From an uncultured Clostridia bacterium (GTDB lineage: Bacteria > Bacillota > Clostridia > Peptostreptococcales > Anaerovoracaceae), in the NCBI GenBank assembly GCA_934277495.1, contig CAKQUI010000016.1, positions 1 through 28,035 on the forward strand: a DNA stretch of 28,035 nt, given 5' to 3'. Below are positions 1 through 12,558 of this stretch, piece by piece. Under the pieces are notes generated by a model that saw only the letters and a program-made list of their open reading frames with translations, had not been told where the DNA came from and did not search any database. Each line of letters starts with the position of its first letter. Within the stretch, counting starts at the first letter, position 1. The position numbers and the translations under genes were made by a program.

Positions 1-1134
1 CTGGAAAGAATCAGGAAGGGACACTATACACCTTCCCCAGTAAAGCGGGTAGAAATCCCAAAGCCGGATGGTGGAATACGTAAGCTTGGCATTCCAACCA
101 TTGTAGACCGTATCATTCAGCAAGCCATTGCACAGAAGATGGCTCCGATCTATGAACCGAAATTTTGGGAAGGAAGCTATGGCTACCGACCGGGAAGAAG
201 TGCAAAAGACGCAGTCCTAAGGATAAAGGAGTATGCAGAGAAAGGCTACACAAGAGCAGTGATTCTTGACCTGTCAAAATACTTCGACACGCTGAATCAT
301 GTAATACTGCTGAACATTTTGCGAAGAGACGTAAAAGACGAAAGAGTGATACAAATGATAAAGCGGTATCTTAAGAGTGGAGTCTTGGAAAATGGAATGG
401 TAGTCAGAACAGAGGAAGGTTCACCACAAGGCGGAAATCTTTCGCCATTACTGGCAAATATCTACCTGAATGAGTTTGACCAGGAATTCAAAAGACGAGG
501 AGTGCCCTGCGTTCGCTATGCCGATGACATCGTACTGCTTGCAAAGAGCGAAAGAGCCTCGAAACGATTGCTGGAAACCAGTACAAAATATCTGGAAGAA
601 ATACTGAAATTGAAAGTGAACCGAAAGAAAAGTCGTACGGTAAGTGTATTTGCGATCCGAAATTTTAAGTATCCTGGCTTTTGTTATGGGAAGAACGGAA
701 AAGGGATCTATATCCGTATCCATGCAGATGCATGTAAGAAAGCCAAGGATAGACTGAGGAAGCTCACTTCCCGGAGCAGATGCGGAAACATTCGAAAAGC
801 AATAGAACGAATCAAGGTATTCATGCGGGGATGGCTGAACTACTTCGGTATTGCGGATATGAAGAACAACATAGAAGCACTGAATGGATGGCTGTATCGG
901 AGGATACGAATGTGTATCTGGAAGCAGTGGAAACTACCGAAGACAAGGAAGCGGAAGCTGTTAAGATTAGGCCTGCCGGAATGGGCGGCCTGTGAAGGAG
1001 CATACAGCCGAAAAGGCTACTGGAGAATGGCTGGAAGTGGAGTGGTACATCGAGCGTTGACAAAAGAAAGACTGATACGCTGGGGATGTTATGATTTATC
1101 CGTGGCGTATCAGTCTCTGCACGTCAACTGTTGA
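1..1134 (+). CDS. ltrA: Group II intron reverse transcriptase/maturase (5'-partial)
   Basis: This multifunctional protein splices its own intron RNA and copies it into DNA. The frame is open from base 1, so the true start is upstream; 377 residues are visible. The first 46 residues carry the RT0/RT1-type stretch (TPSPVKRVEIPKPDG, then RKLGIPTIVDRIIQQAI). Later come YRPGRSA, the catalytic stretch DLSKYFDTLNH, SPQGGNLSPLLANIYL, and the YADD active site at 517-528. The C-terminal part (RGWLNYFGIADMK) is the X/maturase domain, followed by a short basic tail. No HNH nuclease motif is present, as in endonuclease-minus introns. The stop lies only 2 nt before domain V. Family assignment is very secure; the exact intron class is not. 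Confidence 0.95.
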   Translation: MERIRKGHYTPSPVKRVEIPKPDGGIRKLGIPTIVDRIIQQAIAQKMAPIYEPKFWEGSYGYRPGRSAKDAVLRIKEYAEKGYTRAVILDLSKYFDTLNHVILLNILRRDVKDERVIQMIKRYLKSGVLENGMVVRTEEGSPQGGNLSPLLANIYLNEFDQEFKRRGVPCVRYADDIVLLAKSERASKRLLETSTKYLEEILKLKVNRKKSRTVSVFAIRNFKYPGFCYGKNGKGIYIRIHADACKKAKDRLRKLTSRSRCGNIRKAIERIKVFMRGWLNYFGIADMKNNIEALNGWLYRRIRMCIWKQWKLPKTRKRKLLRLGLPEWAACEGAYSRKGYWRMAGSGVVHRALTKERLIRWGCYDLSVAYQSLHVNC

Positions 1135-1895: not shown

Positions 1896-1940
1896 CAAAA
1901 AAGGGACGAAACCGGCATTTGAACCATTGGTTTCGTCCCT
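1896..1940 (-). terminator. Rho-independent terminator of the acyl-CoA ligase gene
   Basis: A perfect 12-bp stem (AGGGACGAAACC 1902-1913, GGTTTCGTCCCT 1929-1940) is followed on the minus strand by six T (1896-1901). It lies 20 nt past the stop codon of the minus-strand ligase gene. Confidence 0.92.
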
Positions 1941-1960: not shown

Positions 1961-3595
1961 TCAGCCTTTGTTCTGCTGTTCTACGAGTCTCAGTGTGCTG
2001 TAGCGTTCTCTAAGTACAGGTTTTTCGATCTTGCCTGTCGGGTTGCGTGGAACGTCTGCGAATATTATCCTGTGCGGACGTTTGTAGCGTGGCAGTTCGT
2101 GGCAGAAATCGTTTATCTCTGCTTCTGTGCACTCGTGGCCTTCCTTCAGCTCGATTATCGCAGCTGATATCTCGCCAAGTCTCTGGTCTGGTACTCCGAT
2201 CACTGCAACGTCCTTGATAGCATCGTGTTTTCTGAGGAAGTTTTCTACCTGTACAGGATAGATGTTTTCACCTCCTGAGATTATAACGTCTTTCTTTCTG
2301 TCTACCAGGAAGTAGAAGCCGTCTTCGTCTTCATAAGCCATGTCGCCTGTCATGAGCCAGCCGTCGTAAAGTGTTTCGTTTGTAGCTTTCTCATCACGGT
2401 AATAGCATTTCATGACTCCGGGACCTTTGACAGCCAGTTCACCGACTTCGCCTCTCCTGACGATGCCTCTGCTTTCGTCTACTATCTTGGCTTCCCAGCC
2501 GAAGCCAGCTTTGCCGATGGCGCCGACCTTATGTATGTTTTCTACGCCCAGGTGTACGCATCCCGGACCCGTTGATTCACTGAGTCCGTAGTTCGTATCG
2601 TACTGGTGGTGCGGGAAGTATGATTTCCAGCGTTTGATGAGACTTGGCGGTACAGGCTGGGCGCCTATGTGCATCAGTCTCAGCTGATCCAGTTCGTAGT
2701 CTTCAAGTTTGATATCGCCTCTGTCCAGTGCGTCCAGTATATCCTGGCACCATGGCACCAGCAGCCAGAGGAGAGTACATTTTTCTTCGGAAATCGCCTT
2801 GAGTATCCATTCAGGTTTCGTTCCTTTCAGCAGTACAGCCCTGCCGCCTACAAATAGGCTGCCGAACCAGTGCATCTTGGCTCCTGTGTGATAAAGCGGA
2901 GGGATGCAGAGGAACACGTCGTCTCTTGATGTGGAATGGTGATTCTGTTCTACTTTGCATGCGTGCATCAGGCTTCTGTGAGGATGCAGTATCGCTTTCG
3001 GGAAACCCGTGGTGCCTGACGAAAAATATATTGCGGCATCATCGGAATCCTTGATGTCGATCATCGGAGTCCTTGATGAACAGTATTCGATGAGTTCGTC
3101 ATAGCTCTCTGCGAATGAAGGACACTCTTCGCCGGCATACAGCATGAGATCTACTCCCGGCATCCTGTCGCATATTTCCTCCATACGACCTGTGAATTCA
3201 GGGCCGAAGACGATGCCGTCCACTTCTGCCAGTTCACAGCAGTAGCGGATCTCATCCGGAGTATAGCGGAAATTCAGCGGCACTGCCAGGGCTCCGGTCT
3301 TGAGGATACCGAAGTATATAGGCAGCCATTCGATGCAGTTCATCAGCAGTATGGCTATTTTGTCACCCTTTTTGATACCTCTGGAAAGCAGCAGGTTGGC
3401 GAATCTGTTTGCCTGTGTGTTGAACTCGCCCCAGGTGATTTCTTTCCTGAAACGTGCTCTGCCCTTAGGCTCCATCAGGGAATATTCTTTCCATGTCATC
3501 CTCGGTTTGGCATCGTCTCCGGGGTTCAGCTCAACGAGACTGATATCGTTTTTAAAAAGTGTAGCGTTGTGCTCAAGTATCTGTGTTATTGGCAT
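1961..3595 (-). CDS. AMP-dependent acyl-CoA synthetase/ligase, T-box controlled
   Basis: This 544-residue member of the ANL (adenylate-forming) family activates a carboxylic acid with ATP and usually passes it to CoA. All core motifs are visible: the P-loop YFSSGTTGFPKA, YGLSEST, the TGDMAYEDEDGFYFLVDRKKD hinge region, ISGGENIYPVQVE, and the C-terminal catalytic lysine in PTGKIEK. Length is normal for the family. The start MPITQI is chosen because AAAGGAA lies 9 nt upstream; a longer reading would run into the T-box leader. The substrate cannot be read from the sequence. Control by a leader read as tyrosine-specific (3645-4016) suggests an aromatic acid from Tyr metabolism, but that is inference. 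A LuxR gene lies upstream on the same strand, with the leader's own promoter between them. Confidence 0.9.
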   Translation of the reverse strand: MPITQILEHNATLFKNDISLVELNPGDDAKPRMTWKEYSLMEPKGRARFRKEITWGEFNTQANRFANLLLSRGIKKGDKIAILLMNCIEWLPIYFGILKTGALAVPLNFRYTPDEIRYCCELAEVDGIVFGPEFTGRMEEICDRMPGVDLMLYAGEECPSFAESYDELIEYCSSRTPMIDIKDSDDAAIYFSSGTTGFPKAILHPHRSLMHACKVEQNHHSTSRDDVFLCIPPLYHTGAKMHWFGSLFVGGRAVLLKGTKPEWILKAISEEKCTLLWLLVPWCQDILDALDRGDIKLEDYELDQLRLMHIGAQPVPPSLIKRWKSYFPHHQYDTNYGLSESTGPGCVHLGVENIHKVGAIGKAGFGWEAKIVDESRGIVRRGEVGELAVKGPGVMKCYYRDEKATNETLYDGWLMTGDMAYEDEDGFYFLVDRKKDVIISGGENIYPVQVENFLRKHDAIKDVAVIGVPDQRLGEISAAIIELKEGHECTEAEINDFCHELPRYKRPHRIIFADVPRNPTGKIEKPVLRERYSTLRLVEQQNKG

Positions 3596-3644
3596 TGGTA
3601 TATGTTCCTTTCGTATGGTTTCGCATCGATGCTGCGAGGGTATC

Positions 3645-4016
3645 AAAAACGCCCTCTGCATCGCAGAGGGCGGAGTGTTCACTTCGCGGTACCACCTCAT
3701 TTTATCGCTGTCTTGCGGCAGCGACCTTTACGGGTACGTCGTCCGTGTAATGGCGGGTATACCCTTGTGCTGTATCGGGCACTCCCGTCGCAGCCTACCG
3801 GCTGTTATGATCGCAGATAAATGATATGCATTCCGCAAACCGGATAGTGTGCTTCCGACACAGGGCATTTATCAGTGTTTATGATCGTGCAGTTTTCGGT
3901 GCGCAGCTCCAGGATGTATTCGCAGACAGTAACTGTGCGCCTCTCACCGGCCGGCAGCTCTCTTGACAGTATCCTGAATGTTACTTGTTCCCTTCAAAGC
4001 CTTGATTATTCAACTA
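3645..4016 (-). promoter_or_regulatory. T-box leader, specifier read as UAC (Tyr)
   Basis: On the minus strand the leader shows a stem I with an AGAGAG motif and a GCCGGUGAGAGGC distal loop. The canonical T-box AAUGAGGUGGUACCGCG is at 3685-3701, and a terminator hairpin at 3650-3672 (GCCCTCTGC/GCAGAGGGC) precedes five T (3645-3649). Lower stem I pairs CAGGAT (3971-3976) with ATCCTG (3910-3915). In the specifier loop, GAA-UAC-AUCCUGGAGC aligns with the known glycine leader layout (codon, then ten bases ending GAGC), giving UAC at 3916-3918. The T-box UGGU would pair with an ACCA tRNA end, which fits tRNA-Tyr (discriminator A). Uncharged tRNA should allow read-through into the ligase gene, about 50 nt downstream. 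Confidence 0.93.
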
Positions 4017-4022
4017 TATTCA

Positions 4023-4050
4023 ATTTTACCCTCTCCACAGGATTTGTCAA
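4023..4050 (-). promoter_or_regulatory. Sigma-A promoter of the T-box/ligase unit
   Basis: On the minus strand TTGACA (4045-4050), a 16-nt spacer and TAAAAT (4023-4028) form a near-consensus promoter. Transcription would start at about 4016, just before T-box stem I. The ligase is therefore transcribed separately from the upstream luxR gene. Confidence 0.82.
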
Positions 4051-9535: not shown

Positions 9536-11005
9536 TTAATGCTGTGTCAGTACGTCTGATTCAGGGGTATCTGACACGGGTGTGTTTTCTGAAGGATCCT
9601 CAGCGAAATTTTCCTCGGATCCGATCCTGAAAGCTTCTCTTGCTGTTTCCTCATCCTCGGCAGCGGCTTCCAGATGGATGCGTTTATGACATTCCTCCCA
9701 GTAACGTCCGCCTCTGTAGATCTTCTTGAAGAAGATGTACGCTGGTATGGATGTTGCTGCCAGTCCCAGCCCTACGATCCAGTTGTCTGCAAATACGCTG
9801 GCTCCGTAGATGACTATCGGGAAACACAGATATACGATATATGCCTTGTTCGGCAGAGGGACCTTGAAGTCCAGCTTCATATCAGGCTGTTTGATCCTCA
9901 GCTTGATATTGGCGATGAACATCATGATGACCGGTACTGCGTAAAGTATGGACGCTATACCTACGAAAGCGATGAAGCTTCCTGACGAGCAGAGTCCGAT
10001 GCTGACTACCGACAGTATGATGATAGCCATATAAGGCGTCTTGAACTTCTTGTGCTCCTTGGAGAAGATCTTGAAAAACTGACCTTTTTCACTGAAGGAT
10101 TTCATCAGGTATGCGTATGCCAGTATGTATTCACAGAGGATCATCATGCTGGCAAGGCTGCCTGCTGCTACGAAGGCCCATCTCAGCGGAGCACCGCCTA
10201 CGATATTACCGACTTCCACGAAGGAAAGAGGACCTTCAGATGACCAGTCCTGCCAGTGTCCTACAGCTGACAGTGCAGGCATTACCCAGAGGATGTACAT
10301 TACCGATATGATAGGTATAGCCAGTACTATAGCTTTCGGTACTTTGCGTGAACCATCTTCTATATCTCCCGACATAGTGGAGATTGTCTCGAAACCTGTG
10401 TTGAACCAGATACCTACAAGAAGACCCTGTCCTGCTGCCTGCAGGAATGACATGTTTTCAGGTACCATAGGTTCCACCGGGCTGTACTTGACGTCTGTAA
10501 GGGACAGAACTACAAGTATTATGAACGGTATTACGCAAAGTATAGTGATAACAGAAGCCAGATTGCTTACCAGCTTGATGCCGATGATATTTATTATAGC
10601 GAATATGGCTATAAGTGCGGCACACAGACACCAGTAAACAAAAGCATCCACTTTTATCGGGAGGAGCATTTTCATGTAATTGGCACTGAGCACTGCGAAT
10701 GTGGCAGGTTCGACGAATCCGGCGATGGTGTAGCACCAGCCGCTGACGAATCCTGCTTTTTCACCCAGTCCGTTCTTGGCCCAGGTGTACATGCCCCCGT
10801 CTTCAGGATATGCAGATGAAAGTTCTGCAGATGACAGTCCGAATGGCAGTGACCATACGAATGGTATGAGTATGAAGACCAGCATTGTCATTCCCGGACC
10901 TACGGAACCGACCAGGTCTTCGATGCCGAATCCGCCGCCGGCAACGGTGACGCATATCATCATGACCAGCGCGAAGACGGATATCTTCGATTTTTTCTTT
11001 GACAT
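9536..11005 (-). CDS. APC-family amino-acid/polyamine permease
   Basis: This 489-residue permease has about 12 membrane helices and a ~55-residue acidic cytoplasmic tail (AEDEETAREAF to the end). Helix 1 reads VAGGGFGIEDLVGSVGPG and is followed by the FVWSLPFGLSSAELSSAYPEDGGMYTW stretch; this resembles the polyamine-uptake/LAT branch of the APC superfamily (GGPFGVED, AELSTAFP). A cationic amino acid or polyamine is therefore a reasonable guess, not shown. The start MSKKKSK is preferred over a longer N-terminus because GAAAGGAAG lies about 10 nt upstream and the extension has no membrane or family similarity. The upstream enzyme gene at 11272-12558 is on the same strand but separated by a terminator. 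Confidence 0.88.
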   Translation of the reverse strand: MSKKKSKISVFALVMMICVTVAGGGFGIEDLVGSVGPGMTMLVFILIPFVWSLPFGLSSAELSSAYPEDGGMYTWAKNGLGEKAGFVSGWCYTIAGFVEPATFAVLSANYMKMLLPIKVDAFVYWCLCAALIAIFAIINIIGIKLVSNLASVITILCVIPFIILVVLSLTDVKYSPVEPMVPENMSFLQAAGQGLLVGIWFNTGFETISTMSGDIEDGSRKVPKAIVLAIPIISVMYILWVMPALSAVGHWQDWSSEGPLSFVEVGNIVGGAPLRWAFVAAGSLASMMILCEYILAYAYLMKSFSEKGQFFKIFSKEHKKFKTPYMAIIILSVVSIGLCSSGSFIAFVGIASILYAVPVIMMFIANIKLRIKQPDMKLDFKVPLPNKAYIVYLCFPIVIYGASVFADNWIVGLGLAATSIPAYIFFKKIYRGGRYWEECHKRIHLEAAAEDEETAREAFRIGSEENFAEDPSENTPVSDTPESDVLTQH

Positions 11006-11124
11006 AACAGTCAGCTTCCTTTCTTGATTACCTTTGTTTTCTGACCGGGGAGTTCCAGTGTGTGTCCGCTGCTCTGAGATGATGTCTCTCCCGGAGCGGG
11101 CAGATGAAACCCGAAACCCCGGTG

Positions 11125-11161
11125 AAAAAACTGCGGAGCCTGCATGATATGCGGCTCCGCA
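11125..11161 (-). terminator. Terminator of the saccharopine dehydrogenase-like gene
   Basis: TGCGGAGCC (11132-11140) pairs perfectly with GGCTCCGCA (11153-11161). On the minus strand it is followed by GTTTTTT (11125-11131). It lies between the dehydrogenase and permease genes, so the two are at most partly co-transcribed. Confidence 0.85.
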
Positions 11162-11271
11162 TTGACTATGCAAGTGTTTGCGTTATAGATTATGCAGGGA
11201 GATGGTCATAGAAGAAGGAATCAGTAACTATTGTGCTTCGCTCTCCCTGCTGAGATCATGACCTGTGCCGT

Positions 11272-12558
11272 TTATTTTCCAACTGCGTCGATGAATGCCT
11301 TTTCATTGAGTTCGTCTGCGTATTCGGAATCCATTTCCTTGATACCTGCAGGGAATTCATATTTAGCAAGTCTTTCTACGAACGGATCCGGATCGAAGTG
11401 TTCAGGTCCCCATGCGCCGGCTTCGTTCCAGATGCCTCTTGCAATGAGTTCCATCATGATAACAGGTCCTACAGCTGTCTGTGCTACTACGGAGTTTGTA
11501 GTGTATTTGGCAACGCACTCCTGGTTGTCTGCTATCTGATAGAGATATACTGACCTGTACTTGCCGTCTTTCCATCCTGTTACCCATGTGCCTGCACAGC
11601 CCTTGCCTGTCATCGTCAGTGTCGATTCTACAGGTGAAGGGATGACTTTGCATACGAAGTCTCTTGGAGTGATCTCTGCATCGCCTACTTTTATCTTTGT
11701 AGTCTTGTCTGCCAGACCATACTCGTAAAGAGTGAGGAGTTTCTTTCTGAATTCTGCAGGTACGCCGTATTTGAATGTAACTCTGTTGCAGTCGATCTCT
11801 CTTGGAACCAGACTTACTTCTTCGTGTTCTACATTCACTACTTCAACATCGCCGATGCCGCCAGGGAAGTTGAATACTTCAGGTTCTGAGAACTGCTCTG
11901 TGCATTTCCAGTGACCATCAGGGAATTCTTCTGTCTTTTCCCATACTACAGGAGGTGCCAGGCACTCGTCTATAGTGGTCCATACAGAGAATCCGAAGTC
12001 TGATGATGTATTGCCGTAGTTGTCTCCATCTCTTACGTTCACTTCGTCGATCTTGTCGAAGAGGTGTTTTGCAGCGTATTTTGCAAATACGTCAGCCATG
12101 CCCGGCTCTACGCCTGATCCGCATACTGCGATCTTTCCGTTCTTTTTCCATTCTTCACATTTAGCGAACTGGTAGTCGCCCATCTTGATGTTGACTTTGC
12201 CGAACGGATCGTCAGCATCAGGTGTGCTCAGTGTCATAGCGCAGTCGAGGTAACCTATGCCAAGCTCCAGAGCTGTGTCGAATATAGTTTCGTTCATTCG
12301 AGGGTCGCATGCGTTCATAGTGAAATCTATGTCGTGCTCTTTTACTACTGCCTTGATGCTCTCAGGGTCTCTTGCATTTATATGTGCAGGAACGAATTTG
12401 CCGCCGCCGCATATCTCGTTTGCTACTTTTTCAGCTCTTGCTGCATCATAGTCTGCAACTACTATTTTTTCCGCCCAGTCAGCTTCTCTGCCCTGTCTTG
12501 CGATGATCTTTGCTGCTGATGTACCGACTCCGCCTGCTCCGATAATAAGTAATTTCAT
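11272..12558 (-). CDS. Saccharopine dehydrogenase family protein
   Basis: This 428-residue NAD(P)-dependent oxidoreductase has an N-terminal Rossmann fold (LLIIGAGGVGTSAAK at 3-17) and the family's large C-terminal domain. The family includes saccharopine reductase/dehydrogenase (lysine metabolism) and carboxy(nor)spermidine dehydrogenase (polyamine synthesis); the sequence alone does not decide between them. NACDPRMNETIFDTALELGIGYLDCAM is the usual end of the nucleotide domain. The start is well supported by GGAGG 7 nt upstream. The permease downstream (9536-11005) resembles polyamine/cationic amino-acid carriers, which fits either pathway. Its promoter region shares a 15-bp motif with the membrane LuxR gene at 13447-14487 and holds a 20-bp dyad, so that regulator may control it. 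Confidence 0.85.
   Translation of the reverse strand: MKLLIIGAGGVGTSAAKIIARQGREADWAEKIVVADYDAARAEKVANEICGGGKFVPAHINARDPESIKAVVKEHDIDFTMNACDPRMNETIFDTALELGIGYLDCAMTLSTPDADDPFGKVNIKMGDYQFAKCEEWKKNGKIAVCGSGVEPGMADVFAKYAAKHLFDKIDEVNVRDGDNYGNTSSDFGFSVWTTIDECLAPPVVWEKTEEFPDGHWKCTEQFSEPEVFNFPGGIGDVEVVNVEHEEVSLVPREIDCNRVTFKYGVPAEFRKKLLTLYEYGLADKTTKIKVGDAEITPRDFVCKVIPSPVESTLTMTGKGCAGTWVTGWKDGKYRSVYLYQIADNQECVAKYTTNSVVAQTAVGPVIMMELIARGIWNEAGAWGPEHFDPDPFVERLAKYEFPAGIKEMDSEYADELNEKAFIDAVGK

Follow-up and report, generated by a model that had tools for sequence, protein, structure and literature searches.

T-box leaders respond to uncharged tRNA, which stabilises the antiterminator, so that the downstream gene is switched on when the amino acid runs low. 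It has been recognised for a long time that rumen bacteria use arylacetates and branched acids as starting material for amino acids, and the assignment of a ligase to one amino acid is hard from sequence, because such enzymes look alike. Here we describe a tyrosine-type T-box in front of the gene for an AMP-forming acyl-CoA ligase, located on a stretch of 28,035 nt from an uncultured Clostridia bacterium (contig CAKQUI010000016.1; the whole stretch is termed the window). The tyrosine T-boxes of tyrS belong to the same RNA class and share the UAC specifier and the UGGU bulge with the ligase leader, but they control a synthetase, whereas the target of the leaders described here is a CoA ligase or a symporter. 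The available text of PMC2494555 mentions tyrosine T-boxes in front of tyrS and of an NhaC transporter gene as well as T-boxes on genes for tyrosine biosynthesis and phenylalanine hydroxylase; the words “CoA” and “oxidoreductase” are absent from this text.

The metabolic counterpart has been described for methanogens, which convert arylacetates via aryl-CoA and arylpyruvate to amino acids (PMC6737245), and for rumen bacteria, whose formation of phenylalanine from phenylacetate is cited in PMC7356843; both follow the scheme that is proposed here. In the available portions of these two accounts neither a regulator nor a route from 4-hydroxyphenylacetate to tyrosine is named, and the difference of the present system is the tRNA-sensing leader that ties the ligase to one amino acid. 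According to the accessible part of PMC13285125, indolepyruvate oxidoreductases (IORs) accept phenyl-, hydroxyphenyl- and indolepyruvate as substrates, and a reverse reaction is proposed for the Methanobacterium enzymes. The same source places the IOR of Bacteroides next to an AMP-forming arylacetate-CoA ligase and suggests a biosynthetic role. Our comparison with Bacteroides is based on this description, and the term “T-box” is absent from the text at hand, unlike the situation of the T-box-led ligase. A search of the accessible literature returned no report linking T-boxes with CoA ligases, IOR or phenylacetate-CoA ligase, although a mention in T-box reviews is possible. In its design the leader does not differ from ordinary T-boxes; its target and the split of the specifiers between two aryl-acid ligases appear to be new. 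We consider it likely that the tyrosine T-box controls an aryl-acid CoA ligase that feeds the conversion of 4-hydroxyphenylacetate to tyrosine via IorAB.

The leader occupies about 420 nt of the minus strand, from a promoter-like site at 4023-4050 to the start of the 544-aa ligase gene at 3595, and comprises the following elements:

4023..4050, minus strand: sigma-70-type promoter, TTGACA (4045-4050), 16 nt, TAAAAT (4023-4028), a consensus match only
3890..4006, minus strand: T-box Stem I (RF00230 alignment; covariance model R1, see below, 83.0 bits, E 3.1e-17)
3977-3986, 3958-3963 and 3938-3948, minus strand: Stem I motifs AGUA (within the first range), AGAGAG and distal-loop GGUGAGAG (within the last), from sequence positions
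3916..3918, minus strand: specifier codon UAC (tyrosine) within GAA-UAC-A (RF00230 and R1 alignments)
3685..3701, minus strand: T-box sequence AAUGAGGUGGUACCGCG with UGGU bulge, which fits tRNA discriminator A (RF00230 alignment, sequence)
3662..3702, minus strand: antiterminator, GAGG/CCUC flanking the 7-nt bulge UGGUACC (folding, -8.0 kcal/mol)
3645..3672, minus strand: intrinsic terminator in competition with the antiterminator (10 bp, -20.1 kcal/mol, z -5.6)
3604..3612, minus strand: ribosome binding site GAAAGGAAC (sequence)
1961..3595, minus strand: 544-aa AMP-forming acyl-CoA ligase of the ANL family, proposed 4-hydroxyphenylacetate-CoA ligase (Pfam, motifs, orthologues)

The window leader is a genuine T-box with the tyrosine specifier UAC. 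RF00230 matches positions 3663-4006 of the minus strand with 86.6 bits (E 2.3e-19) over model positions 1-219 of 219 and places UAC at the specifier, with the A that usually comes next. The default Rfam scan of the window listed nothing for a T-box, because this score lies below the gathering cut-off of 93 bits. Bulge (UGGU), antiterminator and terminator (10 bp) follow each other in the order expected for a T-box. The folding energy of the antiterminator is not better than that of shuffled sequences, and the fold of the whole leader is barely better (z -0.99). The promoter matches the consensus at 11 of 12 positions, but the three promoter-like sites in the region are not above shuffles (mean 2.5). 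The initial annotation of this DNA had proposed a leader with Stem I, T-box sequence and terminator as well as a UGGU bulge fitting discriminator A, and all these parts were located on the minus strand. The leader is predicted to bind tRNA-Tyr and to respond to its charging state.

The association of leader and ligase extends well beyond the window. A protein search for the ligase gave, as the best 120 of at least 7995 scored candidates, sequences with identities of 89% or more throughout. Two peptide patterns, scanned against genome contigs, provided 308 relatives, of which the best 80 (67-74% identical) were taken as loci; by title nearly all of them are metagenome-assembled genomes of Clostridia or other Bacillota, many from ruminants, and one is labelled Lentisphaerae. 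Viral contigs contained no relative of the ligase. The covariance model R1 was built from 28 Stem I stretches (27 relatives and the window) that were aligned out of 39 located. Its input (alignment A2) had been selected with a pattern containing UAC, which is invariant in the 28 leaders. R1 was searched in the window and the 80 loci, and T-boxes were counted as upstream within 2,200 nt. A UAC T-box precedes the same ligase in 40 of the 80 relatives under these settings, compared with 32 recovered by the T-box pattern alone within 700 nt. Among the 45 R1 matches, 42 carry UAC at the specifier columns, namely the window, the 40 leaders that precede either the ligase or a symporter and ligase together, and one element behind the ligase (L057); the remaining three, read by eye, are leaders of other genes with AAC (L041, L051) or AUC (L001, minus strand). 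R1 also recovers leaders with many different codons, and UAC is therefore not imposed by the model. Three loci were not counted as upstream T-boxes: L057 (downstream only), L070 (remnant motif only) and L026 (motif with one mismatch, no Stem I match). In L017 the contig starts too close to the symporter for a leader to be visible. The UAC Stem I of L057 (7485-7605) is located 3' of the ligase at the contig end, and a further tyrosine-controlled gene therefore probably follows.

The gene neighbourhood of these relatives points to arylpyruvate metabolism. A search with the proteins of locus L008 (tblastn) placed iorA directly behind the ligase in 39 of the 80 loci, 38 of them by script plus L053, whose match is split in two, and an SSS symporter directly in front of it in 17. 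T-box and iorA occur together in 26 loci and the T-box only in 14 (L053 counted as adjacent). One form of the operon reads T-box, symporter, ligase, iorA, iorB, paaK-like gene and ACT gene. In L008 the ligase is followed by IorA (754.2 bits; cut-off 650.9), IorB, a PaaK-like phenylacetate-CoA ligase (544.8 bits, short of the 646.3 cut-off) and a protein containing paired ACT domains.

The reading of the specifier had to be secured against a shifted frame. In the window UAC precedes the conserved GAG of Stem I by 6 nt, as the codon does in most control leaders, while in the eleven tyrosine leaders of ten genomes (see below) it is found at 7 nt, a distance also seen in some controls (PheS L125 and L131, ThrS L156); position 6 of these eleven reads ACA or ACC and would specify threonine. 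The bulge discriminates between the two frames. UGGU is present in 11/11 leaders of the tyrosine set and, in the class sample (see below), in 12/12 ligase leaders, 11/11 PaaK-like leaders and 10/10 tyrS-like leaders. It also occurs in 41 of the 42 leaders with UAC in alignment A3 (window and ligase loci), the remaining one having no motif in the stretch searched. All six threonine leaders looked at harbor UGGA (ThrS named by eye, L132 being doubtful), and the single serine leader (SerS) has UGGC. The threonine reading (ACN) of the ligase leaders is therefore unlikely and was rejected, as was a serine reading (UCN) of the PaaK leaders. UGGU is common to phenylalanine, valine, alanine and isoleucine leaders too, and thus counts against threonine and serine without proving tyrosine by itself. 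The tyrosine specifier of the initial annotation is upheld by UAC, which occupies the specifier columns in the window as well as in 41 leaders from ligase loci, with the bulge speaking against threonine.

All T-boxes of ten genomes from the ligase loci, eight picked for having the leader and two for lacking it (G006, G007), were also examined. RF00230 (E up to 0.001) identified 80 T-boxes, 79 of which were pulled and 70 aligned by R1. UAC was read in 11 of the 70, seven of them in front of the ligase, one in front of a symporter and ligase, and three in front of a copy of the symporter whose retrieved stretch contains no ligase; there is no UAC leader among the leaders read in G006 and G007. 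Other leaders carry, in the same columns or shifted by one base, codons that suit their own genes (codons and names by eye from N-termini): UUC for PheS, UGC for cysteine genes, ACC for ThrS, GCC for AlaS, GUC or GUG for ValS, UGG for TrpB/TrpE, AUC for IleS, CUC for a LeuA-like gene and AAC for AsnS. The nine leaders that R1 left unaligned resemble those of PheS, ThrS, AlaS, ValS and TrpE. No TyrS relative was found on any of the 79 stretches.

A wider sample of 292 genomes of one class shows a consistent division of specifiers. R1 matched in 113 of these genomes at E 1e-12, and the 70 best-scoring leaders were read (30 returned as loci plus the next 40). Six of the 292 were already ligase genomes (G008, G014, G021, G040, G047, G048), and four of the leaders read had gone into R1. 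UAC was found in 24/24 leaders whose first gene best matches the SSS symporter, three of these proteins being only 44-45% identical to that of L008, and in 12/12 leaders of the ligase; all 11 leaders in front of a PaaK-like ligase carry the phenylalanine codon UUC. Three genomes (G171, G103 and G064) each combine the ligase under a UAC leader with PaaK under a UUC leader. R1 was built from ligase leaders and its ranking favours similar leaders; the UAC/UUC split between ligase and PaaK is not explained by this bias. The first genes without a match have 17 UAC and six UUC leaders. A family search of five identified L222 as TyrS, L230 as a member of the tryptophanase/tyrosine phenol-lyase family, L246 (UUC) as DAHP synthase, and L217 (UAC) and L237 (UUC) as TrpX-like binding proteins, both under the model cut-off. 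The best model of L215 is PaaK (529.1 bits, under the cut-off), and the stretches of L243 and L253 are too short to contain a gene. An apparent tyrS follows 10 of the 70 leaders (by eye; confirmed by the family search for L222).

A UAC T-box precedes a gene of the tryptophanase/tyrosine phenol-lyase family in L220, L221 and L230 (L230 scanned, the others by eye). Control by shortage would fit the synthetic direction of this enzyme.

Ligase and IorA also co-occur at the genome level. At thresholds of E 1e-180 for the ligase and E 1e-150 for iorA, the ligase is present in 109 of the 292 genomes, and iorA in 100 of these 109 versus 94 of the 183 without ligase (odds ratio 10.5, Fisher P 1.4e-13, no kinship correction). 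Among 50 ligase genomes iorA was found in 48 at E 1e-40 (45 over the cut-off), compared with three of 14 control genomes.

The ligase of the window is intact, as the initial annotation had stated. Both the AMP-binding domain (PF00501, 250.9 bits) and the C-terminal domain (PF13193, 53.3 bits) are matched, and YFSSGTTGFPKA at residue 190, NYGLSES at 335, TGDMA at 416 and NPTGKIEKP at 518 are present, which we take to be the core motifs of ANL enzymes. A longer open reading frame (ORF) from 3700 was rejected; 18 aligned relatives share the start MPIT, and this frame therefore runs through the leader.

A gene induced by lack of tyrosine is expected to serve the synthesis or uptake of this amino acid, and an AMP-forming ligase beside IorAB fits the sequence arylacetate, aryl-CoA, arylpyruvate, amino acid. 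With PaaK-like enzymes under phenylalanine leaders and the ligase under tyrosine leaders, 4-hydroxyphenylacetate is the most economical substrate, and we predict it for the ligase of the window, which narrows the aromatic acid of tyrosine metabolism suggested by the initial annotation to one compound. When tyrosine is short, uncharged tRNA-Tyr would pair with UAC in Stem I and with UGGU of the antiterminator bulge, the terminator would not form and the ligase would be made. The enzyme would convert scavenged 4-hydroxyphenylacetate with ATP and CoA to 4-hydroxyphenylacetyl-CoA, from which IorAB, working reductively and using CO2 and reduced ferredoxin, would form 4-hydroxyphenylpyruvate, and an aminotransferase would yield tyrosine. 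In the relatives the SSS symporter under the same kind of leader may import the acid, and PaaK under its phenylalanine T-box may perform the equivalent step on the way to phenylalanine. The amino acid can be read from the leader RNA, which gives the symporter and a large family of ligases without assigned function an assignment open to direct test; T-box control would be extended to acid salvage.

Several observations weigh against this proposal. The expectation that the leaders of orthologues also carry UAC was borne out in 40 of the 80 relatives and no upstream T-box was found in the other 40, including five leaderless loci in which Rfam (E up to 0.01) finds none; the codon nevertheless stands as UAC wherever the ligase leader was read, and with a leader in half of them the orthologues are not mostly devoid of it. 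Furthermore, 13 of the 80 loci have iorA without T-box and 27 have neither, nine of the 109 ligase genomes lack iorA at E 1e-150, and seven of the 30 genomes with the best-scoring leaders harbor the symporter under UAC and no ligase at E 1e-180, so that the symporter might carry tyrosine itself. The standard route to tyrosine is mostly present in the ligase genomes (TyrA 43/50, chorismate synthase AroC 45/50). The idea that they lack normal tyrosine synthesis was thus rejected, and the proposed route would be an additional, second one.

The window contributes a further point of this kind, since tblastn with six operon proteins of one relative recovered only the ligase on its 28 kb and no relative of iorA, iorB, paaK or the symporter. 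This isolation of the ligase from any pathway neighbour is what would be expected if its pairing with the T-box were an accident of the contig, the T-box having been captured by a nearby gene. Such an explanation can hardly be entertained given that 40 of the 80 relatives share the UAC leader. In the ligase tree (85 rows) the window and four metagenome proteins form a separate branch inside the family with a support of 100, and the T-box label (40 loci; these five rows unlabelled) requires 11 changes versus a shuffled mean of 28.5. Alternatively, the substrate of the ligase might be a different acid, namely a fatty acid, a phenylpropanoid or indoleacetate, and tyrosine might be a mere growth signal. 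The best sequence matches of the ligase in the PDB are fatty acyl (FadD13, FadD5), feruloyl-CoA and 4-coumarate ligases; they span several acid types and therefore do not settle the substrate. No curated NCBIfam cut-off is reached among the best 25 of 107 models matched, the best one being NF004837 (417.2 versus 476). Another acid is unlikely, as iorA adjoins the ligase in 39 of 80 loci and the leaders of this ligase and of PaaK differ in their specifiers (UAC versus UUC). A third explanation assigns the ligase and IorAB to the breakdown of tyrosine to 4-hydroxyphenylacetate, with the T-box only tuning expression. IOR enzymes are known from aromatic amino acid fermentation (PMC5817080, PMC13290082), and the available sections report fermentative use in the former and oxidative use in gut acetogens in the latter, which is at odds with a reductive role. 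The same applies to B. thetaiotaomicron, whose IOR is involved in the conversion of phenylalanine to phenylacetate, in the very genus in which an IOR adjoins an AMP-forming ligase; the accessible part of the same source nonetheless regards the AMP-forming family as favouring CoA-ester synthesis (PMC13285125). A T-box that opens on amino acid shortage has the wrong sign for a catabolic operon, and the PaaK-like ligases carry a phenylalanine leader. Breakdown is accordingly quite unlikely, and the synthesis of tyrosine from 4-hydroxyphenylacetate is the reading that we retain.

With less assurance, we favour the generalisation that T-boxes in gut and rumen Clostridia mark acid-salvage ligases, each wired to the amino acid formed by ferredoxin-dependent reductive carboxylation: tyrosine for the present ligase (4-hydroxyphenylacetate), phenylalanine for PaaK (phenylacetate), and isoleucine or valine for MbcS-like fusions with HTH and cupin domains (2-methylbutyrate, isobutyrate). 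If true, the specifier codon gives the substrate of an otherwise unassigned ligase.

The fusions were noticed in the ten genomes, where isoleucine- and valine-type T-boxes (AUC in L122, L123, L124, L137, L138, L139, L142 and L153; GUA in L135 and L158) are followed by proteins whose N-termini look alike and HTH-like (by eye). All ten proteins except L142, whose stretch is short, are weakly similar to the ligase (48-65 bits, 21-29% identity). Pfam scans of L175, L177 and L179 showed fusions of HTH, cupin and acyl-CoA ligase domains, and the best NCBIfam model of L175 and L179 is the acyl-CoA synthetase MbcS, under the cut-off. These fusions may be 2-methylbutyrate or isobutyrate ligases for isoleucine and valine.

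The surroundings of the ligase gene in the window include one further element:

1897..1940, minus strand: inverted repeat and T run 3' of the ligase (repeat arms located; absent from the terminator scan list)

The ligase is therefore probably a single-gene transcript in the window. About 0.8 kb past the end of the ligase gene is an open-ended ORF (1-1134, plus strand) that presumably resembles a group II intron reverse transcriptase/maturase. At 9536-12558 (minus strand) an amino acid permease (PF13520) is located beside a saccharopine dehydrogenase-like protein with a weak match to carboxynorspermidine synthase (159.5 bits versus a cut-off of 800).

Another T-box target was seen in the ten genomes. 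In L154 and L155 (longer stretches L183 and L184) a tryptophan T-box (UGG) precedes an L-lactate/malate dehydrogenase-like gene, whose product in L183 stays under the model cut-offs, and genes resembling those of a tryptophan ABC transporter then follow (by eye). The dehydrogenase behind this T-box might act on indolelactate or indolepyruvate.

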